Notes under the pieces: generated by a model
The model's input: only the letters and a program-made list of their open reading frames with translations
Told to the model about the DNA's origin: nothing
Databases searched by the model: none
Part shown: positions 11,474 through 42,278 of the stretch, in pieces
Layout of the letters: the number at the start of each line of letters is the position of its first letter
How positions within the stretch are numbered: the first letter of the stretch is position 1
Position numbers and translations under genes: made by a program
Assembly: GCF_011682045.1 (NCBI RefSeq)
Contig: NZ_VVIW01000013.1
Coordinates: 121,234-185,233 of the forward strand
DNA from: Massilia aquatica
Lineage (GTDB): Bacteria; Pseudomonadota; Gammaproteobacteria; Burkholderiales; Burkholderiaceae_D
Direction: 5' to 3'
Length of the DNA stretch: 64,000 nt

Positions 11474-11866
11474 ATGGCGGGAATAAACAGCGTGCAGCAG
11501 ATCGTCGCGACGATCCGTGCCGAAATGAGCAGCCGGGTCGGCAAAAACGACCGGCGCGGCCTGGCCATGGCCGAGAAACCTCCGCTGCGCTCCAGGCCGG
11601 CGCAGGCGCGCGCGCGCATGAGCGGCCTGCTGCAGCAGCGCGTGGCAGCACTCGACCCGGCCGATCCCGAGCGCGGGCGCAAGGCTTTCCGGATTTTTCT
11701 CGAATCGGTGTTGCTCGCCGAGTTCGGCGAAGAGTTGATCAACGATCCGGCGTTTTACGCCATGGTCGACCAGGTGCAACTGACGATGGAAGACGATCCG
11801 CAGATTGCCGGCGCGATCGCACAGGCTGCGCAGAGCCTGTGCGGCGACGGACGGACAACTTACTGA
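11474..11866 (+). CDS. Unknown small protein at the end of the flagellar operon
   Basis: A protein of 130 aa from the ATG at 11474, or 141 aa from a GTG at 11441 that overlaps the sigma-factor stop. I do not recognise it. The N-terminal half is basic with possible helices; the C-terminal half (FRIFLESVLLAEFGEELIND, then QVQLTMEDDPQIAGAI) is acidic and helical. There is no signal peptide or membrane segment. It is co-directional with the sigma gene, and its last 7 bases overlap the 3' end of the convergent fliH-like gene. Size and helical content would suit an export chaperone or a sigma-factor partner (anti-sigma FlgM-like), but no motif supports a choice. Confidence 0.6.
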   Translation: MAGINSVQQIVATIRAEMSSRVGKNDRRGLAMAEKPPLRSRPAQARARMSGLLQQRVAALDPADPERGRKAFRIFLESVLLAEFGEELINDPAFYAMVDQVQLTMEDDPQIAGAIAQAAQSLCGDGRTTY

Positions 11867-14154: not shown

Positions 14155-14766
14155 TTACGTCGGTAGCGTGCCACCGTATGCGGACATGAGCAGGTGTCGG
14201 TGGTAGGGGTTGTCTTCAGCAGGCTCGTCGGCCGTTGCCGCCGGGGCGGGGACGGCCGATGGCGCCGGATTATCCGCGATCGCTTTCGCAATATCGTCGA
14301 TGAACATTTGCATGTCCTTGTTAAGCGCAAGATTGGTGTGGTTCAGTTCGATACCTTTTGCCAGCGCGGCACTGGCCTCGGGCAGCTGATTTTGCGCGAG
14401 CAAAATCAAGCCGTGACCGAACAGGCGTAGTGGATCGCTGTCCGTCAGCTCCTGCAATGGGGAGAGTACCGTGACGGCACGCTCGGCATTGCCGTTGGTC
14501 AGCCAAAGCAAGCCTAACTGAAACCGTGCGATCGACAAGCCAGGATCGAGCGCGAGGGCGGACTCCATTTCGCCGACGGCACGGTCGTACATCTGGATCT
14601 GGGCATAATGAGCGCCAAGCAAAAAGTGCGTCGTGCCGGAGGCGTCAGGGCGCGATGCAGCCTCCTTGAAGTAGGCAATTGCCGCGCCATCATCGCCAGA
14701 TGCGCTTGCGTTAACAGCAAGCTGGCATAGTTCGGCGTGATCTAATGTCGAAAATGTAGTTGACAT
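14155..14766 (-). CDS. Small tetratricopeptide-repeat protein
   Basis: A 203-aa protein with about four TPR units (residues 10-150), for example QMYDRAVGEMESALALDPGL and QLPEASAALAKGIELNH, then an Ala/Pro-rich linker and a short C-terminal tail (YHRHLLMSAYGGTLPT). No signal peptide is evident. It lies immediately beyond the toxin/immunity unit and in front of the larger TPR gene, with a perfect 12-bp palindrome 24 bp before its start. The role is unknown. Confidence 0.82.
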   Translation of the reverse strand: MSTTFSTLDHAELCQLAVNASASGDDGAAIAYFKEAASRPDASGTTHFLLGAHYAQIQMYDRAVGEMESALALDPGLSIARFQLGLLWLTNGNAERAVTVLSPLQELTDSDPLRLFGHGLILLAQNQLPEASAALAKGIELNHTNLALNKDMQMFIDDIAKAIADNPAPSAVPAPAATADEPAEDNPYHRHLLMSAYGGTLPT

Positions 14767-15119: not shown

Positions 15120-15509
15120 TCACTCAGTACCATCCAATTCAAATAATATGTCCAAATTCATTTTTTTTGCGCTTGATTCCAAACCACTCAATTCATCTTC
15201 CGAGTAAAAACCAAGGTCCCACCATGGCAATCCAGAAGCAATCTGACGATCTAAATCATCTGGTCGGAAATTTGTCTTCCCGGAAAACACCTTGCGCACC
15301 TTAATTCGCAATTTCGTCACGGCTGTTGGATCAGCAGCGTTAATTTTAGCTTTATATGTCTTAATCCCCAAGGAAATAGGATCATGAACGTAATGAACCC
15401 GAGCATAAAATTCCTTACCGCATTTTTCGCAACGATATAGGCGCACAATCCCAACCTCGCTGACGATAACCGCGTCACCACCGCATTCTATACAACTGAT
15501 CTCACTCAT
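15120..15509 (-). CDS. Candidate immunity protein with N-terminal zinc ribbon
   Basis: A 129-aa cytoplasmic-looking protein with no signal peptide. Residues 6-34 contain two CxxC pairs (CIECGG and CEKCGKEF) that should bind one zinc as a ribbon. The remainder is a mixed domain with a basic middle (TKLRIKVRKVFSGKTNF) and an acidic C-terminus (WWDLGFYSEDELSGLESSAK). The ATG lies two bases after the stop of the giant RHS gene, on the same strand, so the two are surely co-transcribed and probably coupled. Small genes immediately 3' of an RHS gene are characteristically the cognate immunity genes. I do not recognise the family; the function is inferred from position and AT-rich composition shared with the toxin tip. 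Confidence 0.7.
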   Translation of the reverse strand: MSEISCIECGGDAVIVSEVGIVRLYRCEKCGKEFYARVHYVHDPISLGIKTYKAKINAADPTAVTKLRIKVRKVFSGKTNFRPDDLDRQIASGLPWWDLGFYSEDELSGLESSAKKMNLDILFELDGTE

Positions 15510-15511
15510 AA

Positions 15512-16063
15512 TTATTTTATCCGTATTTGGTACTCAGCACCTGATTTAATATACTTATCAACCGTCTTTTGCGTAATATTGGGATAAAGTTTATTATTTT
15601 CAACCAATAATTTCATTACGTGAGCATCGGTTTTTAGCGACGTCGCACTATCAACCACACGTTGCACATTATACGCAGCAAGTTCACTCTTTAAAGCAAC
15701 CATATCATCGGCGTATGACCATGGAGTTAGTTTTTGAAGATAGTGTTCTGCCTCATGAGCAACCACACCAGCTGCTTGTGCGGGACTACCGATATAAGGG
15801 CGCCAAACAATCATTTCGTTTTTGCCGAATGGCATGAGTCCACCTTGAGGTGACTCTAGAATATCGTCCGAAAAATTGATTGTAATTTGTCCTCGCTTCA
15901 ACATTTTCGCAACTGCCAGACCTTCAGCCTTATTGCTTTGCCGCAGCGCTCGCATGACTGAGGGGAGACTAATTCGGTGGCTCCGGCTTGCAAAATAATC
16001 TGAATGCAAACCTATAGCTGCGGCACCGGGTGAGTTCCCTGACGATTTTAGCTCAACATCGGT
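15512..16063 (-). other. Toxin tip: HExxH metallopeptidase-like domain of the RHS protein
   Basis: Residues about 8560-8742 form the AT-rich C-terminal domain. The signature is VVAHEAEHYL, an HExxH zinc-binding/catalytic helix at residues 8662-8666 (DNA 15743-15757). A glutamate in KSELAAY at 8686, 20 residues after the second His, is spaced as the third ligand in gluzincin-type peptidases. Upstream strands (GQITINFSDDI, NEMIVWRPYIG) could form the edge strand of the active-site cleft. Many polymorphic toxins carry such HExxH tips. The exact family and substrate are unknown. Confidence 0.72.
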
Positions 16064-19000
16064 CTCCAACAAGGAAAGTGTTTTAATTTCTTTATCTACA
16101 ATAGCAGATGGAGAAATTAGTTTATTGGTAGCGACAGCCTGTTGCCCTCCAACTACTATAGGTGGGGCCTTTTTTTGAATTACTGGAGAAGGCATTGCCA
16201 GGTTCGAGGGCACGCTAGGTGGTATCAAAGCACCAGTACGATAGCGCAGCCCTGTAACAGCAGAAGATGCGCTAGATCTGAGTGCATTAGCCTCAGCAAA
16301 CCCCAATCCCGCCACCCCACTGTCGTAGGCCGCCTCACCTATTCCCCCTACAAAATATTGACCGGTAACAGTCGTCGGCCGATATGTTAAGTTCGCAGCA
16401 ACTGTACTTGCTAGCTTTTCAGCGTTTCTTACGCCGTCCTGTTCGCCATATGTCTCCCACTTGAATGAGCCCACAACGCCGACGACCGGACCGACAACAG
16501 TTGCGACAGCGCCCGAAATCAATGCAGCCGGTGTTTCGATAACGGCCCCAACTATCATTCCGGGGACGTTGTCACGAGCTTCCATGCCTTGAACGTACTC
16601 CACATCCTGACGTGTGACTGAGCTGCGTCCCTCGAACGGCACCTCAGCCAATTGTACCTCGGGCCCGGATCGCGACGTATTCACGTTCCCAGCGATGGTT
16701 CCTGGCTCCGCAGTTGGAAGGATGATGCAAGCAGTCGAAGTAAGCCAGCAATTGACTAGTTGTCCAGTCTTTGCGTCACGTACAGTTACCGCACTCCCCT
16801 CTCCGAAAACTTCCGGGTAGCTATGTGAGTTAGCTGGATCGGGTGTTGGTGATCCTGACGAATACTGCCCGATTGTTTTTAATCCAAGGTCAAATGGTCG
16901 AACACCTGTACTTTCAGGGGAGACTTCGCGCCGTTCAGATGCGGAGCGCCTGTCAGCTAGAGAATCATTCAAGCCGTAGCCAAATTTCCCGCCGTTCCTT
17001 AAAATTTCTTGCCCGGAAGGGGTATCGAAAAATGCGTCCTCGGCAGCCGCGAAATCAGTAGCATCAGAGTGAACAAACGGCAATTCGCTCAATGATGGGT
17101 TGATTGGCAGCGGGGCAGAGATCGATTCCGCCCTCAACGACGGCGGAATATTAGATTCATTTAAAATGTCTGAGCTATCCCTTCCACCCTGCTTCGAATA
17201 TTGGGTATTGGTGCCATCGCCCGCTTGACGCCCCTCCACCTCTATATATCCTCGCTCCGCATCCCATCCTGTCTTTATGCCGTCACTAATCGCCTCAAGC
17301 GCCACCATTGCATAGCTGACCTTGCCTGGCGACAGCAGAGCCGTGGTCATGCGACCTGCCAACCCGGCCATGGTGCCACGCCTGAACCCCTCTTCGAAAT
17401 CACCATGGATCGTCGGAGACGAACCCGCCGGTGATGTCGGCTTCATATCCTGGTTCACTGCCGAATTGACAGCAGCGCCGGCCACAGCTGCCCAGCTGAA
17501 ACTCTTCTGCATCCCGGTCGCGATCGATAAGCCCTGAACGATGACGTTATTAGCTACCGCATTGCCTACGGCACTGCCCACGGCATTTCCTGTCAGATTC
17601 GACGCGCCGAGGGCGCCAGCGAAAGCGCCCATGCCGACGTTCTTCCACTTGATACCATCCTGCTTCCCTGCCGCTACCGACGTCACTTCCGTAGCCAGGC
17701 TGGTTGCGCCGCCCATGATGGCGCCGGCGACATACGGGGCCGCCGTTGCGTAGCCGGCCGCCGCAAGTTCGGTGGCCGCCATTGCCGCGTACGGCGCGAC
17801 AATGTAGACCACGATCAGCACGATGATGATCAGCAACACCAGAAAGCCATAATCCTTCGGCGTCGGCGGGGCAGGCAGATTCGGCGACAAATTGCCGATC
17901 AGCTTACCATTGTTGAAGGTCAGCTTACTTTCGACATCGGTAGCCGCCGCTGGCGTCACCAGCACCTGCCCGCCTTTCAGCACGCTCCCAAAACCGAGAT
18001 TGTTGGCGTCCGCCAGCAAATGCCAGTCGTCGGCATTGCCGTAAACGCGCAAGGCCACGGAACTCAGCGTCTCGCCTTCCATCGCCTCCACCGCACCGCC
18101 GCTGGCCGCGCTCTCGCCCGATGGACGCAAGCCATGCGGCGTCAGCGCACTCTGGCTGGTGTCCTTGTCATAGATTTTCCAGAAGAAGTCTTTGATCTCG
18201 TCTTCGACATCCTTATGGAAGGAACCCACGTCCCTGCTGTAGCGCAGCTGCAATTCGCCGCCGCTCAGGATCTGGCGCTGCTCCAGGTCGGGCGACTGGT
18301 GGTAGCCCTCGCGGCTGACCAGGATCGCCCCGCGCGCATCGGTAACGAACGATTTCTTCCAGATGCCCGTCGTAGGCTGCAGCCCGTTATTTTTGTACGT
18401 CAGCCCAATCAGCACGCCGTTCGCGTCGTAAATCGAGGTGTTGCTGGACGTGTCTCCCAGTTTGCCGGCCAGGTCGCCCGTGATCATGCGCAAGAAACCC
18501 GAAGACGTGTCGATCACCAGGCCATTGGCCGTCATGCGATACGTGTTGGTATAAGTGCTCAATACATGATCGCCCACCAGCGAGTCAACGTGATAGGTCT
18601 TCACGTTGCCGACGTGGTCGAAGCTGTCGTTCGACACCTGGTTCTTGACGTGCCCGCTGTCCTGCAGCGCCTGCTCCTTGATCAGCCGGCCGAATGAATC
18701 GAACATCCGCAGATGGCGTTCGTAGCCGCTGGCGGCGCGCTGAACCTCGTAAATCGCCTTGTAGATGATCCCCTGCTTCTTGTGATTATCCAGATCCTTC
18801 TCATAGGCTTTCAGCGCAACCTCGTACGCCTTGCGGCTGACCTCATACTGCTGCATCGCCTCTGGCGAACTGCCTGCGGGCGGCGCGGTCGGAGGAAGCG
18901 GCGGCAGCGGTGCAGCCGGCCCCATGTCGATGGTCACTGGTGTATTCGGCTGTTCGGCATCCGCCACAGTGCGGCCCCAGCGGTCGTAACTGGTGTTGAA

Positions 19001-22000
19001 CGCCAGAACGTTGTTCACCTTGGTGGCGACCAGGCGGTTCATCGCATCGTAGTCGTAGCTCTCGGTGCGCGCGCCGATGGTGGACGATGCCAGGTTGCCG
19101 GCGCTGTCGAAGGTGCGCCGGATCGATGTACTGTCCAGCCCGCCGGCGGCATTGGTGGCATTCGTGACGATCGTGCGGTTGAGCGCGTCGAACATGAAGT
19201 AGCCATCTTCATTGTGCTGTTTATCCTTGCCCGGCGCGCTCGAGGTGAAGTGGGTCCGGTTGCCGAAGCCATCGTATTCGTACGACAGGGTCTGATGCAG
19301 TCCCGCGTGATCGTCCGCAACCACGCTCAGCAGGTGACGATACCCATCGAAGCGCTGCAGGTTGTCCTGGAACGTCACGCCGTCAACCATGGTGCGTTCC
19401 ACCGTGCGGTTGCCCGCCAGGTCGTACTCGTAGATGGACAGCTTGCTGTAGGCAGGCGACGCTTTCGGACCGGACACAATCTCGCTGATCACCGTCATCT
19501 GGCCGATCGTGTCGTAGTCATACGTGATGACCTGCCCATTGAATGCTTTGGTTGCGCTGATCAGCTGGCCCGCGTTGTCGTACGCATATACCGTCGTCGA
19601 ATTGTCGCGGTTGTTCGACGTGGCCATCCGGCCAAAGCTGTCATAGGTCCATCCCGCAAACATGCCGTTCGCGTCTTGCTCATAGTACTTCTGGCCGGCA
19701 TTGTTCCAGCGGGTGGTCGCCAGCATCTTGCCGGGCACCTTCATTTGCTCCACATTGCCCCGGATATCATGCAGGTAGGTCGTGATCTCGCCCGCCGTAT
19801 TGGTGGCGCTGACCACGTAGCCCATGGCATCGTAGACGTAGCTCTCGGTAAGCACCTGCTTTCCAAGGCTGACCAGGGCCAGAGGCGGAATGCTCGGCCC
19901 CATGTCCGAGACCCACAATGTAGTGCGCGCAGGCATCACCCCTTCCTTGACGGTGAACACTTCGACCGGCAAGTGGCTGACCGTTGTCACATGACCGAGC
20001 ATGTCGTAGGTGTAGATCGTCATCTTCGACGGATCGAGTTCGTCGGTGCGCAACTGGTCGAAACTGTCGTAGGTGTGACGCTCCTTCATCAAGCCATTGG
20101 TCACCGAGGTGAGCAGCTTGCCGGCCGGCGTGTAGCTGTCGGTCGTCACGCGCCAGAGTGCGCGCATGGCGTCGTTGGCGGACGGACCGGTGACGTTGGC
20201 GCTTTCGCGGTCGACCGTCTGGCGTCCCACCAAGGTGCCCTGGATGCCAAAGGTGTAGGTGTATTCCCGCACCCGCCCGCCCGCACTGCCGTCGGCGCGC
20301 GAATTGCGCTCGCTGGTGACGCGGTCCTGCATGTCGTAGGTGTAGGCCGTGGTCGGCCCCGCCGCAGCGGTCGGACCCGGCTCGGTCTTGCTGAGCAGGT
20401 TGCCCCAGCGGTCGAACTGCTGCGTCACGCGCGCGCGGCCGGCCGGCGTCTCCGGCATCAGGGTCTCGATCATGCGCCCGGCAGCGTCGTAGCGGTACTC
20501 GATGCGGCGCAGGTCGGCGTGCTGCAAGGCGTCGGCAGCGCTGGCGATGGTGGTCAGGTCGCGGTCGCCATGGCCCTTGCCGCCGCTGTTAATCGCCTGG
20601 ACCATGCGGCCTTGCAGATCGTACAGGCGGATCTGGTAGGCCCCCTTTTCATTGGTGCGCCACATGTGGCCGGCGTTGTCGTACTCGTAGGTGGTGACAT
20701 GGTTGCCCACCGTTTTGCGCACTACTTCGCCGAACGCGTTGTAATCGAGCTGTTCGCCCGTTTCATTGTCGACGGACAAGCGGCCAAACAGGTCGTAACC
20801 GTTGCCGGCGCCGTACTGAGGGTAGGTCGCCTCGCTGCCCGGAGCGGGCTTCTTCATGTGCACGTGCGAACTAAGATTGCCGCGCGAATCATAGGTAAAG
20901 TCGTGCCGGTTACCTTCGGCATCGATCACGCGGATCGGCTTGCCCTGCTGGTTGTACTCGCTACGGGTGATGCGGTCTTCCGGACCCGGCTCCGCCGGCA
21001 CCGGACTGATGCGGCTTTGCGAACCCTTCGCAAACCGGGTTTCCAGCGTGACGTTGCCATACATATCGTACTGGTAGGTGGTCAGGCCGAGCCCGTCACC
21101 GATCACGCGGCTGCCATCAAGCACTGCCGTCACGCGCCCGAGCACATCGTAGAACATGCGCGACGGCGAATCCGAATCGCCGGCGCCCGGCCCCCACGAT
21201 TTGACCGAGGTGACCTGGCCAAGGGTGTTGTAATCGTTGACGCTGACGTGCGCGTTACCGGCGCCGTCGGCCCTGGTCTCGCGCAGCACCAGGTTGGCCT
21301 TGTTGTAGGTGTTGGTAACGATGCGGTCGCGCGCATCAAGCTGGGCCTGCGGCGCCTTTACTTCATTGCCGGTCCAGCCGGCCACTGCGACGGCCGACTC
21401 CACCGTCGTCGTCAGATTGCCGGCGAAATCGTAGGTGTGCGTGGTCAGGTAGCCGCTGGCGTCGACGGTGGCGAGCAGCTGACCGCGCTGGTCGTAGTAG
21501 TTGTTCACCACGCTCCACTGGCCGCTCACAGGATTGACCAGGGTGGCGATACGCGTGGCTTCGCCGAAGCTGTTGTAGGTATTGCGCGTGACCGCGCCGG
21601 CGACGAAGCTGCGCTGGGCAGGGTCGCTGGCGGCCGCATCGATCACATACGCGGAGGGCTGGGTCACTTCCAGTACACGGCCGGCGTGATCGTAACGGGT
21701 GACGATGCTGCGGTCCTGGCTGTGATCGCGGCCGGCCAGCAGCGCTTCCATGTCGGCAAGGCTGGTCCGTAAGTCCTGGTAGAACGTGATCGGCTGGGCG
21801 TAGCGTGTCAGGCGCGTCACCTCGCCGAACGCATTGCGCTCGTAGCCGGTGACGTAGCCCTTGACATCGATCTCGAAGCGCAGCATGCCGCTGGCGTCAT
21901 ACATGCTGTTGCTGACCGAATTGAGGATATCGGTCTTCTTGATCGCCAGGCCCAGGCCGTTATACTCGATCTTGCTCTTGCCGACCGGATCGTTCTGCTT

Positions 22001-37000: not shown

Positions 37001-40000
37001 CAAGGCCAGGGTGGCCACGCCATTGACGACCGACGCATGGCCAAGCAGGCTCGTGCCGTTATAGAAGGCGACCATGCCGGACGGATTGACCCCACTGACG
37101 CTGGCGCGCAGGGTGGCGGCGGCGCCGTACACCGGCTTGGCCAGGTCGAGCGCCAGGGTAACCGTGCTCGGAGCGCCCGCCAGCACGTCGGCGCCGATCT
37201 CGTTCGAATTGCTGCCGACATTGGCGGCGTCGCCCGAGTACACGGCCGTGATCTGGTGATGTCCGGCGAGCATGCTGCCGGTGGTGAAACTGGCGGTATT
37301 GTTGACCAGGGCCGCACTGCCTAACAACACGCCGTCGGCAAAGAAACTGATGGTGCCGCTGAGCGCGCGCGCGGCATCAGCGGCGCTGGCCACCGCCACG
37401 AAGGTGCGCGGACTGTGCGGACCGGCCGGGATGCCGCTTTCGCTCAGCCGCACCGTGGTGCTGCTGCCGGCCAGGCGCAGCATGACCGCGCTGCCGTCGC
37501 CCAGCAAGGCAGTGTCGAGCGGGGTGGCCAGGCGATTGGTGGCGTACTGCTTGCCGGTGGCGTCATACAGGGTCTGGGTGGCGTAGCCGAGCGCATCGAC
37601 CTGCCACACAGGACGCCCGGCGGCGTCGTAGATGGTCCAGGTCCTGGCGTCCTGCGCGCTGGCGGCCGGACGCAGTGAGTCCAGGCTCAGCTCCAGCATG
37701 CTTTGCAGGAAGGCGGCATTGTCGGCCGCGCCCAGGTCGCGCGAGGCGCTCATGGCCACGCCCGGATCGACCCGGGTCGCGTAGGCGATGCTCTGGGTAC
37801 GGCGGCCATTGAGGTCGTAGCGATACTCGCGCAAGGCACCGCTGGAATCGACCTCGCCGATCTGGTTGCCGGCGCCGTCGTACCACCGCATGGTTTTGGC
37901 GCCGTTGGCGTTTTGCGTCAGACGCAGGCGTCCGCCGGCGTCGTACCAGAAGCGGGTCTCACCCAGCACCGCGCCTGCGCCGGTGTCGATCCTGGCGATC
38001 AGTTCACCTGCTCGATTAAACACCGTGGTACTGACCATGCCGCTGCTGAGGGTGGTGCGCACGGCATTGCCCGCATCGTCATAAACACTGGTCGCCGCCA
38101 TGCCGGTATTGTCGTGGACATTGAGCGTGCGTCCCAGGCCGTCATAGGCGTAGCTGGTCGCCAGGCCGGCGGCGCTGATGCTTTGCAGCAGTTGTCCACT
38201 CTGGTCATACACCATGCTGGTCACCTGTTGCAGTCCGTCGGCGACACCGGCGCCGCTGCTGTCGAGCGTCTTCCAGCTGGTTGTCTTGCTGACCTGCCCG
38301 CGGAAATCGTAGCTGATATCGGTGCGCTGGTTGCGCGACTTGTCGGCGATGCCCGCAGCCCAGCTCATGAAAGCCGCTTCGCTGTTGGTGCCGCTGAACC
38401 CATCGGCGCTGTAGTCGATCACGCTGGTACGGTTGCCGAAGCCATCGTAGCGGTACTCGGTGACCCTGCCATCCGGGCTTTTGGTAAAGCGCAGGCGTCC
38501 CGCGCTGTCGTACGCGTGCAGCGTATCACGGGTAAAACGCAAGTTCGACTGGGTGTTACTCCACGCCGCCGTTTCCCTGATCAGCTGATTGTTCTCGCTG
38601 AAGTCGTGGTTGACGATAAAACCAAGCTCATCATAAATCTTGATCAGATTGCCGCGTGCATCGTATTCGTAGGTGCTGGTATTACCGGCGCCATCGGTAC
38701 GCGATTTCAGGTTGCCGCTCGCGTCGTAGGTGAAGCGCATGCCGGCCGACACGCCGCCGGCGGCCGGGCCGTAAGCCTCCGTCAGGCGGCCGGTGCTGTC
38801 GCTGGTCAGGGTCGTGACATTACCGAGCGCATCCGTAATGCGGGTTTGCGCACCGGTCGCCGGCGCCTGGGCATAGTGCAAGGTAGACGGGACGTTGGCG
38901 AGCTGGGCGCCCGCCAGCAGTGCCTGGTTACCGAGCAAGGTACGCAGCGCCTCGGCGGCGCCGGCATCGCTGGTGCCGTACAGGGCCGCCGTGACGCTGG
39001 CCCAGGTATCACCTTCGCGCACCCGGTAGTAAGGTGCTACCGGCACGCCGGTGGCGGTGACGTCGTAGCGCAGGGTGGCGGGCACGCCGGCCAGCTTGAC
39101 CCCGGCGGCGAGAACTGGATTGCCGAGCGCGCCGCGCAGAGCGGCGACGGCGTTGCGGTCTTCCGTACCGAACAGGAACAGCGCGATGGCGGCCCAGGTG
39201 TCGCCCGTCTTGACCACATACGTGGCATTGAGCGTGACGGTGGTGCTGGTGCTGTAGTTAACGGTTGCCGGCAGATTGCGCAGCGTCTTGCCCGGCGTCA
39301 GCGCATCGGCCGCGTAGCCGCTCTTGACGCGCTGGACCAGGCCGGCATCGTCGCTACGGTACAGCGCCAGTACAATGCTGCTCCAGGTGTCGCCGCTGCG
39401 CACCACGTAATACGGCGCGACCGGCGTGACGACGTCGAAGGCGAGCTTGGCCGGCAGACCGGTCAGCTTGGCGCCAGGCACCAGTTCTGGATTGCCGAGC
39501 GCAAGGCGCAAAGCCTCGCCGCTCGCCGGCTCGTTGGTATTGTAAAGAAAGGTCGCGATGGAGAACCATGTCGCGCCTTGAGGAATGCGGTAGTAGGCCG
39601 GTACAGTTACCGCACCGATGGTGTAATTGATCCCGCCCGGAAGCGATTCGAGCTTGGCGCCGGGAACCAGCGCCACATTGGCCATGGCCGACTGCAAGGC
39701 CTTGGCGCCTTCGACTTCGGTCTTGCCGAACAGGGCGGCAAAGATGCTGGCCCAGGTATCACCGCTCTGGACGCGGTAGTACGGCGTTACCGCCACGGTG
39801 GTTGTGGTGTAGGCCAGGCTGGACGGCAGGTCCGTCAGCTTGGCGCCCGGGACCAGCGCCGGGTCGCCCAGCAGGGCCCGCAGCGCGGCCCCCGCTTCCG
39901 GCGCGCTGGTGCCGTACAGCGTCTGCGCGATGCGGGTCCAGGTATCGCCGCTGCGGATCGCATAATAGGCCGGCACCGCCACTGTCACCTGGTAATCGAG

Positions 40001-41740
40001 TGTTGCGGGCAGCTTGCCCAGGGTGGCATCGGTCAGCAAGGTCGGGTTGCCCATGGCCGCACGCAGCGCGGCGACCGCATCGGCATCGCTGGTGCCGTAC
40101 AGTTTCTGGGCAATTGCGCTCCAGCTGTCGCCCAGCACGATACGGTAGTACGGCGCTACCGTCAGCGTTGTCTTGACGTCATAGCCGAGCGTGGCCGGCA
40201 GACCGGACAGGGTCGCGCCTGCGCTCAGGGCCGCATTGCCCATCGCCGCCTGCAGCGCCAGCGCCGCCTCGGGGTAGGCGCTGCCGTACAGGCGGCTCGT
40301 CAGGCTGGTCCAGGTGTCGCCCGCTTTCACCATATACGTGGCCGGACTCTGCGTGGTCAGCGCGGAGCTGACCAACCCGGCGCTGCGGCGGTCGACCTGG
40401 GTGATCGTGGTCGACAGTCTGGCGGCATCGAGCGCCAGGCTGTTGGTGTCGCCCTGCGCTTCCCGCAAATCCAGCGCCGCGCTATTGATGGCGGCCTTGT
40501 GATCGGCAATCAGCGCTTCCGTACTGGTCAGTTTCGAGTGGTTAAGCGACGCGTAGCCGGCGCTGGTTGGCGTTTCGCTGGTGGAGAGGCGGTCGGTTAA
40601 TACGCTGGCGCCGCGCGCCTCGGTCAGCGTATCGGTCGTCACCAGCTTGCCGTTATCGATGCTGGCATTGTTGTTCGTGACAACCGTCTCGCTGGTGGTC
40701 AGGCGCGACGGATCGAGCGGCGCGCTGGTGCCGACCACCTTGTCGCCGATGGTATCGAGCTTGCTTTCATCGACCTGCGCACTGGCGGGCAAGGCATTGT
40801 TCAGGTCGGCGTAATCGAAGCGTGTGGTGCGCGCTACGCCATCGACCGTCTGGCTCATGCTGGCGATCTGCCAGCTCGCGCCAAGCTGCTTGTAAGTGAA
40901 GGTCGCGTGGGTGCCGTCGCTCTCGAGAACGCTGGCGAGGCGTTTGCTGTCGCCATCGTAGCCATAGGTGGTGACGTAGCTGCGGCCGTCGGCGATGCTG
41001 TTGTCTTCCGGGCTCAGATCGACCGTCACGCTGCTCAGGCGGCCAAGGGCGTCGTAACCGTAGCGGGTGCGGGTCTGGATGGCGCCGCCGCGCGCTTCGG
41101 TATGAATCTGGCGCAGCCTGCCATCGGCATAGTCGAGCACCATTTTCTCGCCATCCTGGTCGGTCAGCGCGATCAGGCGCTCGCCGTCATAGGTGAAGTC
41201 GACGAAATTGCCGCTGCGGTCGGCCTGGCGGATCATCTTGCCCTTGCCGGATGTCCAATCATAGGTCTCGACCGCCTGGGTATCCCCATCGATCCAGGTG
41301 AGCTGCTTGCTGGTTTCATCGTATTTGAGCAGGTCGTAGGCGCCCGCACCCTCGCGATGGACGTAGGCCCTGAGATGGACGTCGTACACATACACCAACT
41401 GGGCGCCGTCGCCGTCGGTGCGCGTGATCGTGCCTTCGGAGTTGAATTTCCCGGTCACGTTGCCGACGCTGCGATAGAAGCCGAGGCGCCAGTTATCGGC
41501 GCTGCCTTCGCCCTGGAAATTGCCCTGGCTGTTATAGCTGCGCAGGACTGTTGCATCCAGTCCCTGCCCCATCAGGCGATCGTCGCGGTTCTGCAGCACC
41601 AGATTGCCGTTGGCGCTGTTCACATACACCTGCTGGCCGTTACGGCCGAGCGCGGAGGACCCGCTGGCGCCGTTCTGGCCCAGGGTCGACAGTGAGGTAA
41701 GGCTCAAACCCAGAGTGTTGCCGCTGACGATCGCTACCAT
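15512..41740 (-). CDS. Giant RHS/YD-repeat polymorphic toxin with LysM and Ig-like arrays
   Basis: An 8,742-aa uninterrupted protein. Approximate layout by residue: 1-322 N-terminal segment with DUF6531-like start (NGNLVLQNRDDRL ... VLRSYNSQG) and YD repeats; 323-455 seven 19-residue repeats; 468-955 eight LysM repeats; 960-1420 YD repeats; 1426-4146 twenty-eight Ig-like domains; 4150-7860 long YD-repeat region; about 7887-7935 a ninth LysM; 7966-7985 hydrophobic membrane segment; about 8000-8550 Gly/Ala-rich pretoxin region; about 8560-8742 toxin tip with HEAEH at 8662-8666. No Sec signal peptide or PAAR domain is seen at the N-terminus, and I find no canonical RHS core (the DPxGL-type motif) before the tip. 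The start ATG has a weak AAGG 11 bases upstream. The export route is not evident. An immunity candidate follows directly. Confidence 0.9.
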   Translation of the reverse strand: MVAIVSGNTLGLSLTSLSTLGQNGASGSSALGRNGQQVYVNSANGNLVLQNRDDRLMGQGLDATVLRSYNSQGNFQGEGSADNWRLGFYRSVGNVTGKFNSEGTITRTDGDGAQLVYVYDVHLRAYVHREGAGAYDLLKYDETSKQLTWIDGDTQAVETYDWTSGKGKMIRQADRSGNFVDFTYDGERLIALTDQDGEKMVLDYADGRLRQIHTEARGGAIQTRTRYGYDALGRLSSVTVDLSPEDNSIADGRSYVTTYGYDGDSKRLASVLESDGTHATFTYKQLGASWQIASMSQTVDGVARTTRFDYADLNNALPASAQVDESKLDTIGDKVVGTSAPLDPSRLTTSETVVTNNNASIDNGKLVTTDTLTEARGASVLTDRLSTSETPTSAGYASLNHSKLTSTEALIADHKAAINSAALDLREAQGDTNSLALDAARLSTTITQVDRRSAGLVSSALTTQSPATYMVKAGDTWTSLTSRLYGSAYPEAALALQAAMGNAALSAGATLSGLPATLGYDVKTTLTVAPYYRIVLGDSWSAIAQKLYGTSDADAVAALRAAMGNPTLLTDATLGKLPATLDYQVTVAVPAYYAIRSGDTWTRIAQTLYGTSAPEAGAALRALLGDPALVPGAKLTDLPSSLAYTTTTVAVTPYYRVQSGDTWASIFAALFGKTEVEGAKALQSAMANVALVPGAKLESLPGGINYTIGAVTVPAYYRIPQGATWFSIATFLYNTNEPASGEALRLALGNPELVPGAKLTGLPAKLAFDVVTPVAPYYVVRSGDTWSSIVLALYRSDDAGLVQRVKSGYAADALTPGKTLRNLPATVNYSTSTTVTLNATYVVKTGDTWAAIALFLFGTEDRNAVAALRGALGNPVLAAGVKLAGVPATLRYDVTATGVPVAPYYRVREGDTWASVTAALYGTSDAGAAEALRTLLGNQALLAGAQLANVPSTLHYAQAPATGAQTRITDALGNVTTLTSDSTGRLTEAYGPAAGGVSAGMRFTYDASGNLKSRTDGAGNTSTYEYDARGNLIKIYDELGFIVNHDFSENNQLIRETAAWSNTQSNLRFTRDTLHAYDSAGRLRFTKSPDGRVTEYRYDGFGNRTSVIDYSADGFSGTNSEAAFMSWAAGIADKSRNQRTDISYDFRGQVSKTTSWKTLDSSGAGVADGLQQVTSMVYDQSGQLLQSISAAGLATSYAYDGLGRTLNVHDNTGMAATSVYDDAGNAVRTTLSSGMVSTTVFNRAGELIARIDTGAGAVLGETRFWYDAGGRLRLTQNANGAKTMRWYDGAGNQIGEVDSSGALREYRYDLNGRRTQSIAYATRVDPGVAMSASRDLGAADNAAFLQSMLELSLDSLRPAASAQDARTWTIYDAAGRPVWQVDALGYATQTLYDATGKQYATNRLATPLDTALLGDGSAVMLRLAGSSTTVRLSESGIPAGPHSPRTFVAVASAADAARALSGTISFFADGVLLGSAALVNNTASFTTGSMLAGHHQITAVYSGDAANVGSNSNEIGADVLAGAPSTVTLALDLAKPVYGAAATLRASVSGVNPSGMVAFYNGTSLLGHASVVNGVATLALPSLPLGANRLSVAYLGDDANAASSSAVLEQAVAIAPTSVVLSASDLHPSAGDQVTLTATVQAYRPGGTVSFYDRNAQLLGSAMVINGVATLVVRNLASGTAELKAVYSGDPNNAGSTSAVLSAPVTGALSQTTLFASTTTSGTATALSLVAEVRGFSPTGQVNFFDANNGLLGSATVVQGLATLYLVNPTVTSEQVLAVYAGDANNADSVARVFPYPRQAASLALTSATKEMVAFGEAQVNYTLEGVNPGGTVSLIDAQGRLIRQVPAAKSITFNIKDYPLPAGANTLTVLYSGDATNAAAASQVVLKVTPANSTTVLTLNNITDGKVLTGQTVELTTKVTGNPGVTPSGEVEFVESATGKIIGTAKLVNGVASLGAQFDTSFSMMSIVARYKGDQLYAASTNGTYLTVNQAPGSIPVAQITASAATAAQGTSLTLTVRIGTADGLNKPELLNGNVYFYSGKTYLGYASTVAGVATLATSLASVGMTPVQAVFVRSSAYSGQVDNQAATNTVAVNVTAVSNPPAIKQGKPSKTVLLLERGSVDTNLAGTDQPLTLHVKVSGEGVQYGTVSFYSGSQLIGVADFRSGEAYLQLGKLPVGDYSFSAVYSGYGTAGQSESVAHGVSVSAAASTTLLSAQPLPGAAKDRYALIAQVTGNLLTTGIVKFYNGNALVGQAALVNGVARLDATLAGGPAILRAEYAGDAASAASISAHLAALVFNDSVTVDLSSAAAASVVGVPLLLSARVSGSTPHGTVSFFDGELLLGSANVIDGIATLQVDNVQVGARRLTALYCGDVNNRQAASAVLAQAVTRPASGMVLISNGGQGNIASPLRLNVTMAEPGATGTVKFMSGNLLIGTATLVDGQASLSLDRLVATTGDVRAVYEGDGKAAATFSATVALKLVAVNTSISMSATPATTYGDPLTVRVEVGGNQPGGMVVFSVSRVDPDFNKLIPVPVVDGVATLVLPFALTPQTYYIRASYLGDGFNAPAVAPAILHKVSSGQASLQVNAAQTIVSSGSNIILSAQVTPNGNAPVGGKVEWYEGTTLIGTSELGVDGSARLLTRLSAGAHSLSARYAGDSYHSPSATPVAFNVVVPPQLQATTLAVAPSGGTLNANGSGSITLTATVAGGSNPSGVVSFMLGNSLRTLGTANVLNGVATLVLSGNDIGKATGYVSLSYSGDAANAPSVQINGPYINADGVRASDTRPVSLPVLSTSTLATAFGNRLVIRARIGDPAASGTISFYDKQVLLGSARVVNGVAELSVPVPSSRLASLSASYSGDALHAPSSGGSLAAQAPYADAEVLLSVPESFVSGEQLTIKFTVHGAYRTGMVEVFCDGVNVGRSYSSGGIGTFTWNTPVMTSGPHRFEAQFVAENDLARRASNAVVVRSAAKTTTVVRSEPPVALIGTEVALIASVNGDHPGGVVEFYENGALLGSALVVDGVATLLTRSTIQGNRLVRAYYSGDANNNESKDVSATSDSPNGRTVAVATTTALESRIVQGAGGASQIVTATVTGVRPGGRVTFLDQFGNVLGIATISDSDSLSLGRAVLTLDSYVEGRGAVMASYSGDANNAVSVAGPAAVPGQRTSLALAGSPASVSFGTALTLSATLGDSQARGVVRYFSDAGKFLGSAEVVDGVARLVVDDLPPGQRTISAVYQGDLGHAMQVASMVQDVAQAQTATTLSTNGATVDEGTPLILTARVEHLGRGYPGGTVTFYDGATAIGTATLFNGVAVLALKNLATGGHALSARYDGDANNRAARSDAIVQTVLQAPLPTSIALSMSSTSARRGDEVTFTARVTGDAGAGPGGLVTFVNDKGVLGTAMLVDGMARLTYRVPTTSNVEVYAVYSGDERNAGTSGLRTRLTLSVSENPAAPPVPVPVATPSSLSLSATPPKVAFGDAIRLTAAVKGVPGAPAPRGAVIFYNDRDLLGSAQLIDGVATLDWSNRSPFEENVYAVYSGDDANAPTSMVNVTMLPVVFEDIIIDPLVSAVVRMVGNKPVIDLMAIVKYPPGNLSKLLDGSRNTYVNFYLNGKRLERAVVIDGMAMLTGFHNENLMSGTLTAVYDAAGYVKASGTSVGQAVTVPDSSTLPLILTSSAKTPGGLPVTLTANVPGNSFPWRTADGTISFFDGSVLLGSVDPDIDGAKLVLDFLPAGTHQFRAEYSDNPGSAIAASSSEVLLYTVNNPPAILEGKSVLVDAAGKELTEQQAKLARFARISIKVNGTAPSGTVALFGADPSLRFGSGTVVDGVAVILVPLSSLRSGSNTVRVVYSGDAYNAAGAPLMFSLPNLTGVDVIAPEAATLSLTSSPAAAGMVTLQAVVNGNNPDGSITFKDSYGNILGVGVMLAGRASLTVADPAGGLAGVSAEYAGDAKNSARITKHAVAAPLAPTGTGLAVSSSADGIVLAATVAGTGQSPGKVAFYSGSVLLGTVDTVNGSASLKLMSLPAGANRLVAVYLGDALSASSMSAVVHQDMAGTVVGVALSGPGPVRQGAPITYRATVSGKLPSGVVTFLNGKIVLGTERVTDGVATLTLASNAFDIGTLAIVASFAGDADNPPALSAPLQQIVRTGVKSVVVGHSDADRKTRQFMDSDGNVRATLDAEGSYIEYIYDAAGRLVHTIASASPIRGMLTVLSSEANGEANKHANITSWMPLPSAADVHTYIYYDSLGQKIGEVNGEGYLSEYAYDAGGRLVGTTRYATPARTPVTAQSSLAALRPAVHPADQSTSRSWDLKDRLLSQTGADGTVTSYTYDSEGRMVASISARDTSEARTVLRRFDVQGRVKAELNGMGSALITGEQSAAEVDAIWAAHATTLTYDALGQRTSSTDALGHRTVFFHDEAGRVRYTVDAEGGVTENQYDTQGRLDAVLRYATAIPPAARAALRGGLIASVANMADVAALVTAANTRPADNSITRMRYDARGQVVETTDALGAATRASYDAFGAVASVTAPATAEHGATVTTTTYDHMGRQLTVARSGDKLYVQERQAYDVLGRLVRSVDGNGNVTTLTYDRMGQVVTTTDAANGVRKQSYDAFGRRLTVTDALGNVTEYSYDTATRSTTVRTAEKVASVTRQNAHGQVHSLTDGRGNTTSFHYDADGNLVDTVTPLGHSTRDYDTAGRLAHTKDAAGNEVNYTYDAVNRILTRTQDQDGLALVTRYSYDAKGQRVSATDAAGTVTLTEFDLLGQVLTQTLDPQGLKLVTRYTHDARGATLSVTDAAGVVTVHTYDALGRRTSTVVDPDGLKLTETYQYDSNDNVVAKVDTGGNRTQVAYDKLDRPVYTVDPLGYVTQQSYDAEGRLTRTVNYVKPIKLGSDASLEAIKTLVEKVALPAEDTLVHHLYDKDGRLAFDVDGLGGVTAFAYDANGNVGQRTTYATRIVMSKWVPGTVPPVVVDALRDQSLRTVYDSSNRPMFTIDGTGGVSELRYDANGQVSERIGYATAMPSFVALTATGVREALLTRADAARDIHVRYTYDKAGRLAWEVDGVGQVTGYSYDRAGNLLRQVRYAKPLAAGALPAAVQGGAGDRVTLMGYDAAHRMVVQIDQAGQVTRQSVDRAGKVVSRTIYANSVAMPAAGKVPADAVTLAATVVPDAARDQTLRSVYDAIGRELYRVDSVGAVTEQHYDASGHVTERIVYATQVAASVKMTAADLGAAVALLKDAKRDNHARFVYDANGLLQWSVEGEGNLTAYSYGHIGELLGRTVYAKAIPADLSQYNNMTLSAAALAATTGADGKEVRVYDKQNHLLWTYDGSGALTEFHYDVKGNLTSSVLSNKRLDLSRFQGKFVPSTYTYDRDIASYRIYDGASRLEWTIDGNGGVVHFGYDGNGNVIEQTSYANRIDRSKWAIGSAPAVVADAARDSVQRSVYDAAGRVVLSVDGAGMVVRYAYASNGKVSDKLRYAEPIALSSASTAAAIEAALKPDSVRDLHERYAYDSAGRVALQADSFGFVEGYLYDVQGNLVRQVRYSAPIAAGAALESVKTSASDRVSLMSYDADNRLKYKVDEHGQITQLFYDAHDNVTKRISYHQLAARPVAGSSATGAAIAALVKPDGANDQVSFSLYDAADRETVSIDALGRTTVRQYDARGNMTDKIVYAAGITVPAVPDTASVAAAVALVANAASDDHVRYAYNASGLLEWSVNAAGDVNSYAYTSAGKLSTLLTYMRKVEPGVELTSDKLSSILFQKVYDARYDYVYDAANRLAVTVDGTGLIMEYQYDGKGNLAGKVVSNGHMATAWHYRQDPQWNAPSQASTAFTPDFDSDSILQTVYDARNRPVFTIDNNGNVVALKYDMYDNVIERLAYAKPIDPATAPTTAAVSAAVRADARRDARSVRAFDAFNRLAWETDTAGMVSSYSYDAEGNLIKQVRYGIPVAIGAAPQSVAESALDRVTLTAYDAERRPVLTVDGDGYVSRMVYDARGRLVEQTSYANRVARPHARSAALGADFAMPAADAARDKLVRSVFDNFGRELFRLDQNGALIAWRYKDNVVERIAYAVAIGADTALTVAALSEAAAKVADVTRDNYVRETYDGSGRMATSTNANGGVTRYTYDPHGNQIERIMPDGNHVLQAYDTDGRLTTTHSSRGADSAVSYDANGKVIVTINRPSNAFASNWYNAPDGGQDSDVGLKTIFDAAYRPIFTIDNYENVVEQRFDARGNVIERITYERPFPANTPINEKALVAFTVQAAKHNNLRVRYVYDELNNLISSVDGGGIVTGYGYDGAGNLAKQIQYANRIAPGADPANVVASADDRISLMAYNQDRQLIYSIDPEGVLRHQQFDAYGNMTGVTLFAKRIDVAALALAGDYDLGSVAQKAQALANPAEDRSSHQAFDARNRLAYSIDALGHVQKNTYGLFGNLESTTQFATPYKGNDFSQAALDKLVVADAANDRTELFRYGPMGGVVWRQDALGATETTTYNSSGQKATLVDKHGALWTYTWDGNGNLDTETGPTVAGPDGPYKRVVRTIYDGQGRLLYRLESGGGAPRDTRYTYDNFGRQVEISFGGSMRYVTSVEKQNDPVGKSKIEYNGLGLAIKKTDILNSVSNSMYDASGMLRFEIDVKGYVTGYERNAFGEVTRLTRYAQPITFYQDLRTSLADMEALLAGRDHSQDRSIVTRYDHAGRVLEVTQPSAYVIDAAASDPAQRSFVAGAVTRNTYNSFGEATRIATLVNPVSGQWSVVNNYYDQRGQLLATVDASGYLTTHTYDFAGNLTTTVESAVAVAGWTGNEVKAPQAQLDARDRIVTNTYNKANLVLRETRADGAGNAHVSVNDYNTLGQVTSVKSWGPGAGDSDSPSRMFYDVLGRVTAVLDGSRVIGDGLGLTTYQYDMYGNVTLETRFAKGSQSRISPVPAEPGPEDRITRSEYNQQGKPIRVIDAEGNRHDFTYDSRGNLSSHVHMKKPAPGSEATYPQYGAGNGYDLFGRLSVDNETGEQLDYNAFGEVVRKTVGNHVTTYEYDNAGHMWRTNEKGAYQIRLYDLQGRMVQAINSGGKGHGDRDLTTIASAADALQHADLRRIEYRYDAAGRMIETLMPETPAGRARVTQQFDRWGNLLSKTEPGPTAAAGPTTAYTYDMQDRVTSERNSRADGSAGGRVREYTYTFGIQGTLVGRQTVDRESANVTGPSANDAMRALWRVTTDSYTPAGKLLTSVTNGLMKERHTYDSFDQLRTDELDPSKMTIYTYDMLGHVTTVSHLPVEVFTVKEGVMPARTTLWVSDMGPSIPPLALVSLGKQVLTESYVYDAMGYVVSATNTAGEITTYLHDIRGNVEQMKVPGKMLATTRWNNAGQKYYEQDANGMFAGWTYDSFGRMATSNNRDNSTTVYAYDNAGQLISATKAFNGQVITYDYDTIGQMTVISEIVSGPKASPAYSKLSIYEYDLAGNRTVERTMVDGVTFQDNLQRFDGYRHLLSVVADDHAGLHQTLSYEYDGFGNRTHFTSSAPGKDKQHNEDGYFMFDALNRTIVTNATNAAGGLDSTSIRRTFDSAGNLASSTIGARTESYDYDAMNRLVATKVNNVLAFNTSYDRWGRTVADAEQPNTPVTIDMGPAAPLPPLPPTAPPAGSSPEAMQQYEVSRKAYEVALKAYEKDLDNHKKQGIIYKAIYEVQRAASGYERHLRMFDSFGRLIKEQALQDSGHVKNQVSNDSFDHVGNVKTYHVDSLVGDHVLSTYTNTYRMTANGLVIDTSSGFLRMITGDLAGKLGDTSSNTSIYDANGVLIGLTYKNNGLQPTTGIWKKSFVTDARGAILVSREGYHQSPDLEQRQILSGGELQLRYSRDVGSFHKDVEDEIKDFFWKIYDKDTSQSALTPHGLRPSGESAASGGAVEAMEGETLSSVALRVYGNADDWHLLADANNLGFGSVLKGGQVLVTPAAATDVESKLTFNNGKLIGNLSPNLPAPPTPKDYGFLVLLIIIVLIVVYIVAPYAAMAATELAAAGYATAAPYVAGAIMGGATSLATEVTSVAAGKQDGIKWKNVGMGAFAGALGASNLTGNAVGSAVGNAVANNVIVQGLSIATGMQKSFSWAAVAGAAVNSAVNQDMKPTSPAGSSPTIHGDFEEGFRRGTMAGLAGRMTTALLSPGKVSYAMVALEAISDGIKTGWDAERGYIEVEGRQAGDGTNTQYSKQGGRDSSDILNESNIPPSLRAESISAPLPINPSLSELPFVHSDATDFAAAEDAFFDTPSGQEILRNGGKFGYGLNDSLADRRSASERREVSPESTGVRPFDLGLKTIGQYSSGSPTPDPANSHSYPEVFGEGSAVTVRDAKTGQLVNCWLTSTACIILPTAEPGTIAGNVNTSRSGPEVQLAEVPFEGRSSVTRQDVEYVQGMEARDNVPGMIVGAVIETPAALISGAVATVVGPVVGVVGSFKWETYGEQDGVRNAEKLASTVAANLTYRPTTVTGQYFVGGIGEAAYDSGVAGLGFAEANALRSSASSAVTGLRYRTGALIPPSVPSNLAMPSPVIQKKAPPIVVGGQQAVATNKLISPSAIVDKEIKTLSLLETDVELKSSGNSPGAAAIGLHSDYFASRSHRISLPSVMRALRQSNKAEGLAVAKMLKRGQITINFSDDILESPQGGLMPFGKNEMIVWRPYIGSPAQAAGVVAHEAEHYLQKLTPWSYADDMVALKSELAAYNVQRVVDSATSLKTDAHVMKLLVENNKLYPNITQKTVDKYIKSGAEYQIRIK
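18150..29302 (-). repeat. Long YD (RHS) repeat region
   Basis: About 3,700 residues of YD repeats of the type YDxxGRLxxxxDxxGxVTxYxYDxxGN. Between about 21.8 and 29 kb they are organised into longer units of roughly 80-100 residues. Each unit runs from an RxVYDAxGR block to a YA(K/N/T)xI block followed by a short Ala/Val-rich spacer. From about 21 kb down the units become classic short YD repeats, as if approaching a core. Such repeats build the hollow RHS shell that encloses the toxin. Confidence 0.85.
29303..37465 (-). repeat. 28 tandem Ig-like domains inside the RHS protein
   Basis: Counting the recurring pair of strands (pattern VxFYxGxxLLGxAxVVxGVATLxL then LxAVYSGDxNNxxSxS) gives 28 units over residues 1426-4146, averaging about 97 residues each. 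They resemble bacterial Ig-like domain 3 (Big_3_5) found in surface adhesins. The units are divergent at DNA level, so an assembly artefact is unlikely. They sit as an insertion between two YD-repeat blocks and would form an extended stalk. Confidence 0.88.
38876..40339 (-). repeat. Eight tandem LysM repeats inside the RHS protein
   Basis: Eight units with consensus YYxVxSGDTWxxIAxxLYGT start at residue 468 and recur about every 62 residues. Each is followed by a linker of the type AxxALRxALGNPxLxPGAKLxxLPATLxY. LysM modules bind N-acetylglucosamine polymers such as peptidoglycan or chitin. The fifth unit has IPQGATW in place of the SGDTW core. The linkers are as conserved as the LysM cores, so the duplicated unit is the whole 62-residue module. 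Confidence 0.88.
40376..40774 (-). repeat. Seven 19-residue repeats between YD and LysM segments
   Basis: Residues 323-455 divide exactly into seven 19-residue units, for example LDPSRLTTSETVVTNNNAS, IDNGKLVTTDTLTEARGAS and LNHSKLTSTEALIADHKAA. The consensus is [LIV]xx[SG][KR]LxTxExxxxxxxxA[SA]. A partial eighth unit leads into the first LysM at residue 468. I do not recognise it as a named repeat. Confidence 0.8.
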
Positions 41741-42278
41741 ATAGATGTATACCTTGCGTTTGGATGGCTATCACTGGACAGCCAAATATTTTGGACGGAG
41801 GCGGTCGTTTGGATTGCCAAAAAATCAGTGCGCGGGACGGACTGCCCTGATCGCGCGTATTGACAAACTTTCGACCTGCGGCTCAACAGGCCGCTTCTAC
41901 CAATACATCTGGGAAATGGCGCGGAAGTTTAGAGCTTTTTAGAAATATTCTTAATTCGTAACAAGTCGACGCGGCTGGCACGCTTTACCTGGCGCCGGGA
42001 CTCAGCGAATGCAGCTTCGAATCTGCGAGAAGCGCTGTCAATGACGATATGCCGAGCCGTGTACGCCGATTGCATTAAGAACGCGATGGGAAACTTGCGC
42101 TATAGCTGTTTTTCTTGGTCAAGCGGTTTTCCCAAAGGGACTTCGCCGGTAAAAACCCGCGCCACAACAGTCAGCATCCGCCATTGCGGCTGCGCTCCGC
42201 ACAAGCGAACGGTGGAGTTGCGCTGGCCGATGGCATCCTTTCCCGGCCAGTGAGCGCACGTGGATCTGGCTTCGGCGG
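41741..42278. other. Intergenic region before the giant RHS gene
   Basis: This region holds no gene I can support: the short open frames here (for example 41745-41942) have no recognisable features or ribosome sites. It must carry the promoter of the RHS gene on the - strand, but I cannot pick a convincing -35/-10 pair. It is noticeably richer in A/T than the efflux operon beyond it. Confidence 0.6.

Follow-up and report, generated by a model that had tools for sequence, protein, structure and literature searches.

A flagellar-type locus without detected filament genes is co-inherited with giant YD-repeat proteins that resemble polymorphic toxins

What is a protein of 8,742 residues for, and what might its gene have to do with the flagellar-type locus that lies near it? 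Both questions arise from a stretch of 64,000 nucleotides of Massilia aquatica (contig NZ_VVIW01000013.1, positions 121,234 to 185,233 of the forward strand; hereafter the window), in which a first-pass annotation had proposed a giant RHS polymorphic toxin with an adjacent zinc-ribbon immunity candidate. From sequence comparison, we favor the view that a flagellum-derived export machine without a filament takes giant YD-repeat polymorphic toxins, in the place of flagellin, as its late cargo, and that the giant of the window has a zinc-protease tip matched by a zinc-ribbon immunity protein. This view builds on the observed co-inheritance of giant and locus, gene content, a separate FliP group, a shared promoter-like site, tip swapping, and the pairing of tip and partner gene.

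The giant is encoded by one open frame on the minus strand (15512..41740) that starts with ATG, has no internal stop, and yields 8742 aa beginning with MVAIVSG. Pfam finds LysM, 27 Ig-like (Big_3_5) stretches, and 4 + 35 RHS_repeat stretches along it, confirming the YD repeats and the LysM and Ig arrays previously read from the sequence. The LysM array covers residues ~451-1000 (38741..40390, minus strand), with eight LysM-like units readable by eye in residues ~466-1000 and one more near 8100; the 27 Ig-like stretches span residues ~1450-4230 (29051..37393, minus), and the main YD-repeat region residues ~4230-8050 (17591..29053, minus). In two congeners the orthologous frames stay open for 8,303 aa (to the contig end) and 9,065 aa, with N termini 92% and 86% identical to that of the window giant and an alignment that holds up to the tip. 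Since these orthologues keep long open frames and align that far, the giant is a real gene and not an assembly artefact, and the annotation of a single uninterrupted 8,742-aa gene was correct. ARAGORN calls a tRNA-Pro within the coding frame (21134-21207, minus), most likely a false positive.

The same N terminus recurs in 33 of 245 genomes of the family. The largest open frame in the survey that begins with it has 15,898 aa (about 47.7 kb; G107:C5:162263), and 42 of the 61 N-terminus matches fall in frames of more than 3,000 aa. Each of the 21 starts that we examined has the pattern MV, four residues, G; the fetched frames outside this set are L073, which has the promoter-like motif described below, and L072, whose N terminus does not align from residue 1. 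Massilia antarctica, a member of the same genus with a single-contig genome, encodes giants of 10,887 and 9,723 aa. By coordinates, the latter ends in PT-HINT and Ntox15, and the ends of ten further giant frames have PT-HINT in two cases and no Pfam match in eight.

Calling the window protein a giant RHS protein holds for its YD/RHS repeats and fails for the canonical caps: neither the DUF6531 N-cap nor the RHS C-cap PF03527 was found in it by Pfam (E ≤ 1e-3 in the first half, E ≤ 1 in the second), and M. antarctica has two canonical RHS proteins of ~1500 aa in which DUF6531 and an RHS cap are both present. We therefore file it as a polymorphic-toxin-like YD giant and not as a canonical RHS protein. 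It is like the RHS/YD polymorphic toxins (T6SS PAAR-Rhs and the CDI/Rhs class, as described in the available text of PMC3482391, and Tse15, PMC11461821) in its YD repeats, its variable C-terminal tip, its downstream partner gene, and the PT-HINT and Ntox15 domains on sister proteins. It differs from them in that giants of its class are mostly 3,000-16,000 aa long, in the LysM and Ig arrays of the window giant, in that no DUF6531, PF03527, or PAAR match was found in it, and in its link to a flagellar-type locus.

A sign that the giant is a modular carrier comes from its last 200 residues, the tip domain (15515..16114, minus). Compared with the two orthologues in blocks of 200 residues, the giant is 78-98% (G170) and 50-90% (G111) identical up to residue 8000 and 82% and 59% identical over residues 8001-8200; beyond that point identity is 30-50% over fewer columns. 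This collapse after residue ~8200 shows a conserved carrier with a replaced tip, and because the G170 frame leaves its contig near residue 8267, the complete exchange is visible only in G111. A step in GC content coincides with the boundary, the last 200 codons having 0.43 and the partner gene 0.42 compared with ~0.64 in the carrier, which supports a foreign origin of tip and partner as a cassette. Together, the tip and the zinc-ribbon gene likely form a swappable toxin/immunity cassette. The replacement tip in G111 looked lysozyme-like by eye, an assignment that we dropped when Pfam gave no match of any kind.

The tip contains the motif HEAEH (residues 8662-8666; 15743..15757, minus), which extends to HEAEH-x2-Q at residues 8662-8669 (window 15734-15757) and is followed by a conserved Glu 20 residues past the last His. 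The two His, the motif Glu, the Gln, and the later Glu are invariant in four of four aligned tips, and HExxHxxQ with a later Glu is the signature given for PVC-metallopeptidases in the available text of PMC3482391. The tip resembles in this signature the PVC-metallopeptidase/Tox-MPTase zincin toxins treated there, which likewise have HExxHxxQ-E at a C-terminal tip behind RHS repeats; it differs in having a dedicated zinc-ribbon partner and no convincing profile match. On the strength of the motif, we predict a zinc protease of the HExxHxxQ-E zincin type. The earlier description of the tip as metallopeptidase-like is thus sustained by the motif but not by profiles: no library profile matches the window tip, a PDB sequence search returned no zincin for it, the best profile match in the tip family (MPTase-PolyVal, E 0.089) arises in one of four members, and a structure model from a three-row alignment is poor (pLDDT 47.6).

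A search for the tip matched six of the 245 family genomes, that of M. aquatica included, and three of the matches are weak (G124, G137, and G158; E 8e-4 to 0.01). A protein search with a 1500-aa frame as a length guide gave 0 matches, viral contigs gave none, a tip profile found nothing in 399 genomes of the order besides the window's own tip, and neither tip nor partner matched anything in 72,556 plasmid records.

Two bases past the stop of the giant begins the gene of a 129-aa protein with a CxxC/CxxC arrangement (15120..15509, minus), as the first-pass annotation had noted. Zinc-ribbon profiles match this protein below threshold when it is searched singly and better across its family, which comprises two subfamilies with four cysteines in common. 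Its structure model (pLDDT 86) has a zinc ribbon and a beta-alpha-alpha-beta-alpha-beta domain; for residues 46-129 the nearest structure is ClpS, at a Z score that is not diagnostic. Judged by eye the protein has no signal peptide, so an immunity protein of this kind would act in the cytoplasm. Wide occurrence away from toxin genes, which would speak against a dedicated immunity role, was not what we found: in 5.8 billion proteins the family has just 16 members, the query among them, and the genomic context was seen for two of the 16 and for two relatives off that list (BJB404 and Rugamonas rubra).

Relatives of the tip, with 30-53% identity, occur at three further loci, and the next gene in each is a zinc-ribbon relative that overlaps the tip's stop. 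The M. antarctica relative (49% identity) sits on a displaced carrier copy, that of Rugamonas rubra ATCC 43154 (31-33%) is a free-standing 173-aa gene, and that of Oxalobacteraceae BJB404 (53%), recovered from a scan of 84,980 species genomes, is placed by its coordinates at the end of a giant frame of 6,265 aa. With the window, the zinc-ribbon gene is next to the tip at all four tip loci read, a count that leaves the three weak matches aside, and the pair is thereby found on other carriers as well, a positive outcome for the check that the first-pass annotation had suggested. The pairing very probably reflects a toxin and its immunity protein. Around the M. antarctica relative (L008 17-18260), the end of the giant with PT-HINT and Ntox15 is accompanied by a second carrier copy and a transposase-derived frame; this last frame ends in the HExxH tip with the zinc-ribbon gene next to it, an arrangement that resembles an orphan-tip array.

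An alternative reading of the same pair is that the zincin is a toxin against eukaryotes such as amoebae or fungi and that the zinc-ribbon protein is its chaperone or regulator instead of an immunity protein. Plants and animals are indeed the targets of HopH1-like zincins, which are T3SS effectors, and PMC3482391 tabulates no immunity gene for Tox-MPTase1-5, although one other zincin class in the available text of that source does have one listed. A partner that is retained even beside a free-standing tip, with a GC content as low as the tip's, is what would be expected of toxin/immunity cassettes, and we consider the eukaryotic reading improbable. As a toxin/immunity pair, the tip and its partner would provide a zincin-type tip with a dedicated immunity candidate, whereas the table in PMC3482391 lists none for Tox-MPTase1-5.

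A different objection is that the giant is no toxin and instead serves the machine described below as a structural part, either an adhesive fibre or a substitute for the filament. The tip would then be a protease for processing or anchoring, regulated by the zinc-ribbon protein. The 27 Ig-like stretches and the LysM units would suit a fibre bound to the cell wall, and the giant appears to occupy the regulatory slot of flagellin (see below). A structural tip, however, should not be exchanged between orthologues, Ntox15 or PT-HINT would be unexpected on sister carriers, and the R. rubra tip is free-standing with the same partner. The swapping of tips between orthologues and the Ntox15 and PT-HINT domains of sister carriers fit a polymorphic toxin, and the structural account seems to us very doubtful.

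If the giant is a polymorphic toxin, its route out of the cell has to be found, and the candidate lies in the same window, beyond the coordinates of the first-pass finding, which makes no mention of it. A flagellar-type system fills the left 12.7 kb and continues for ~9 kb before the window start. Most of its genes in the window are on the plus strand: FlgI, cut by the window start (2..754); FlgB (789..1172) and FlgC (1172..1609), both identified by tblastn to the primary flagellar locus of M. antarctica; FliE, named by place and size (1606..1908); FliF (1921..3369); a 170-aa protein at the expected place of FliG with no flagellar Pfam match (3369..3881); the FliI ATPase, whose true start is probably later in the frame (3623..5224); FlgD, whose true start is probably inside the frame (6646..7116); a FlgE-type hook protein (7132..8310); a short FliM-like protein for which the Pfam match is to the FliMN_C domain only (8320..9102); FliN (9131..9463); a frame with a FliO match in its C-terminal part (9124..9918); FliP of the clade that we call RHS-linked (9911..10678); a FliA/WhiG-type sigma factor (10686..11447); and a 141-aa protein with the core RGRKAFRIFLE and no Pfam match (11441..11866), whose relatives occur in 16 of 18 RHS-linked loci. 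The minus strand follows with FliH, which has a Pfam FliH match (11860..12663), and two TPR proteins of 390 aa (12863..14035) and 203 aa (14155..14766), each with relatives in 15 of the 18 loci. Outward beyond the window start (locus L074) lie FlgH, FlgA, FlgG, FlgF, FlhA, FlhB, FliR, and FliQ. Gene order and sequence features are the basis on which we take the respective genes to be FlhA, FlhB, FliR, FliQ, FlgF, FlgG, FlgH, and FliE. The 141-aa protein was also considered as FlgM, for which comparison gave no support.

The 18 RHS-linked loci examined come from 17 of the 28 FliP-positive genomes (see below) and from BJB404; those of G111 and G170 are cut by contig or fetch ends. They have in common most of 25 genes, namely FliQ, FliR, FlhB, FlhA, FlgF, FlgG, FlgA, FlgH, FlgI, FlgB, FlgC, FliE, FliF, the 170-aa protein, FliH, FliI, FlgD, FlgE, FliM, FliN, FliP, the sigma factor, the 141-aa protein, and the two TPR proteins. 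Export gate, ATPase, MS-ring, rod, ring, and hook genes are thus represented, several of them named by gene order only. No TPR gene was found within the stretches examined in G062 and G227.

The genes expected beyond the hook were sought with M. antarctica primary-locus queries, one per protein (tblastn, E ≤ 1e-3). FliG, FlgL, FlgJ, FliS, FliC, and FliD gave no match in any of the 18 loci, and FlgK gave weak matches of 57-66 residues in three. The FliG, FlgK, FlgL, FlgJ, FliS, and FliD queries are presumed to be these proteins from gene order and sequence features. As controls of sensitivity, primary queries recovered FlgG, FlgE, and FliP in 18 of 18 loci (FlgG and FlgE queries can cross-match), FliF, FliI, and FlgC in 17, FlgH in 15, and FliH in six. 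The locus's own FliH finds its relatives in all 18, and since the primary FliH query finds just six, small divergent genes, or a very divergent FliG or FlgK, could be missed. All 54 flagellin-family profile matches, from seven genomes, fall in other loci, none in the RHS-linked locus. The 170-aa protein aligns weakly with FliG residues 5-182 (hhalign probability 8.7%).

RHS-linked FliP and the giant N terminus are inherited together. FliP was counted in the 245 family genomes at E ≤ 1e-75, a cut-off set after a search of the genus; it falls in a gap between the weakest counted match (1.3e-84) and the best match seen of another class (4.1e-66). By this measure, 28 genomes have an RHS-linked FliP, and the giant N terminus is present in 28/28 of them, compared with five of the 217 genomes without one (G031, G034, G079, G088, and G240). 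Fisher's test gives 4.6e-32, a value that is overstated because the genomes are related. Several genera are mixed yet concordant; in the genus of M. aquatica itself, six of 17 genomes have both and 11 have neither. Among the five exceptions, G079 and G240 have short frames only (401 and 657 aa), and the FliP pieces of G088, with 63% and 53% identity, lie on separate contigs. G031 (giant frames of 4282 and 5329 aa) and G034 (3403 and 4217 aa), both draft genomes, have no FliP match at all, and these two are a real count against co-inheritance. Giant and FliP share a contig in 20 of the 28 genomes, and in 17 the two are within 30 kb of each other. Three genomes in which more than 90 kb separates them, and the remaining eight, in which they are on different contigs, count against the link.

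A tree of 42 FliP sequences from 14 genomes, built without the three G088 pieces, groups the 12 RHS-linked sequences apart from the primary, lateral, and injectisome groups, with support of 90/97 that falls short of the tool's star mark. FliP of the locus lies outside the injectisome clade, which is represented by five grouped rows elsewhere in the tree. As a check of specificity, a lateral-like FliP (37-40% identity) is present in four congeners that have no giants. One genome (G062) has the RHS-linked FliP as its sole FliP match.

Most of the giants also share a promoter-like site. TAAAC-N16-AGATGT stands 191 bp before the giant's ATG (41905..41931, minus) with sigma28 spacing, and the generalized motif TAAAC-N16-RGATRY, noticed first by eye and then counted, hence post hoc, occurs within 350 bp upstream of 19 of the 21 giants, at a shuffle rate of 0.0008. 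The two without the strict motif are L133, one base off, and L141. The spacing TAAA-N18-GAT is that of sigma28 promoters. Across 1.32 Mb of overlapping loci, 28 of 32 matches precede a giant start. Three others stand before the gene of the 390-aa TPR protein, two of them at a distance of ~220 bp and the third at ~790 bp, and the last, on the minus strand of L057 at 3151, precedes neither a giant start nor a recognized TPR gene and has no explanation. With overlapping loci counted once, there are 24 sites: 20 before giants, three before genes of the 390-aa TPR protein, and the unexplained one. A scan with the E. coli FliA consensus did no better than shuffles in 20 of the 21 giant upstream regions (p > 0.05), and three of the primary flagellin genes of M. 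antarctica have TAAACTTTCC and CCGTTAYATA at the same spacing as the giant motif. We infer that the FliA-type factor of the locus itself reads TAAAC-N16-RGATRY.

These data can be set against the proposal that the giant, though a polymorphic toxin paired with an immunity gene, leaves the cell by some other exit, the flagellar locus being a mere neighbour in one genomic island. Enterobacterales flag-2 loci gather cargo genes, one cargo being a set of VgrG, a 1556-aa Rhs protein, and Imm26 (available text of PMC6993521), and G031 and G034 have giants with no FliP match. Two canonical ~1500-aa RHS proteins also lie within the primary flagellar locus of M. antarctica. On the other side stand the co-occurrence in all 28 FliP-positive genomes, the division of several genera into members with and without the pair, the sigma28-spaced motif before giants far from the locus (M. 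antarctica at 3.95 and 6.62 Mb, BJB404 on C51), and the failure to find PAAR or any other T6SS domain in the first 4,300 residues of the giant (Pfam and NCBIfam, E ≤ 1e-3). Coincidental neighbourhood is in our judgment unlikely, and export of the giant by the RHS-linked flagellar-type machine is the more probable course. It would be an extreme case for a flagellar-type channel to pass a chain of ~900 kDa, which weighs against export, and giant and flagellar genes are convergent in the window and form no single operon. Elsewhere, the giant lies 3' of the locus on the same strand in eight genomes (G062, G219, G107, G060, G018, G228, G153, and G175) and diverges from it in two (G148 and G631).

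Under the export reading, completion of the hook would let the FliA-type sigma factor of the locus switch on the giant, which would replace flagellin as the late substrate of the machine. The TPR proteins of the locus would perhaps hold the giant unfolded, and entry would be by way of the conserved MVAIVSG-type N terminus. Outside the cell, the Ig and YD regions may make up a long, tip-capped stalk that reaches a neighbouring cell, in which the HExxHxxQ-E zincin would cleave a cytoplasmic target. The cytoplasmic zinc-ribbon protein would bind the tip and so protect the producer and its kin. More broadly, and by a narrower margin of belief, we lean toward a third flagellum-derived exporter besides the motile flagellum and the injectisome, one that would keep rings, rod, and hook, lack flagellin, cap, hook-junction proteins, and a recognizable FliG, and export YD-repeat polymorphic toxins of 3,000-16,000 residues under its own sigma28-type promoter code, its hook tipped with a toxin-bearing stalk.

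The locus resembles a flagellum in its FliPQR-FlhAB gate, FliHI, FliF, rod, P- and L-ring, hook, FliA-type sigma factor, and sigma28 promoter spacing. It differs in that no flagellin, FliD, FlgL, or FliG was detected and FlgK is seen as weak short matches only, in the 170-aa protein in the place of FliG, in giants in the apparent late-gene slot, and in its own FliP group. The basal bodies of Buchnera are not known to bear a filament. Basal-body and export genes are common to them (available text of PMC8109811) and the present locus, but Buchnera is a reduced symbiont, and here we find an extra system that is linked to giant toxins and, in most of the genomes examined, accompanies other flagellar systems. 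Flag-2 loci are likewise secondary flagellar loci, one of which has an Rhs and immunity pair as cargo; according to the available text of PMC6993521, however, flag-2 keeps the flagellin LafA and Rhs is a sporadic cargo beside VgrG, whereas the giant is a near-constant companion here.

Known in print are the flagellar export of virulence factors, with flagellar type III export reported for YplA, XlpA, and xenocin, and the single Rhs cargo in a flag-2 locus (available text of PMC6993521). In the literature that we searched, which did not take in preprints or most subscription journals, we found no description of a flagellar locus with giant RHS proteins as its constant companions. If correct, the proposed system would be a dedicated flagellar-type delivery route for polymorphic toxins and a new way for giant toxins to be delivered, would explain why several genomes of the family, besides having other flagellar systems, retain a flagellar gene set that lacks a filament, and would offer a natural example of what a flagellum can become.

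Two features of the surrounding genomes deserve mention in their own right. The canonical ~1500-aa RHS proteins of the M. antarctica primary flagellar locus (L126 8011-12546 and L127 1482-6125) have DUF6861 and DUF6531, one with a TNT-family tip, and in the genome of M. aquatica an RHS frame of 1522 aa lies close to the primary FliP (G000 C26, ~62.6-64 kb). About 600 bp upstream of the giant, the window also contains an RND efflux operon (42348-48245, minus; OEP, AcrB-type, and HlyD-type genes), which we considered and rejected as the giant's exporter: among 27 loci it lies beside giants only in G170 and G111, both close relatives. The operon adjoins a different giant in G111, which suggests exchange between giant loci.
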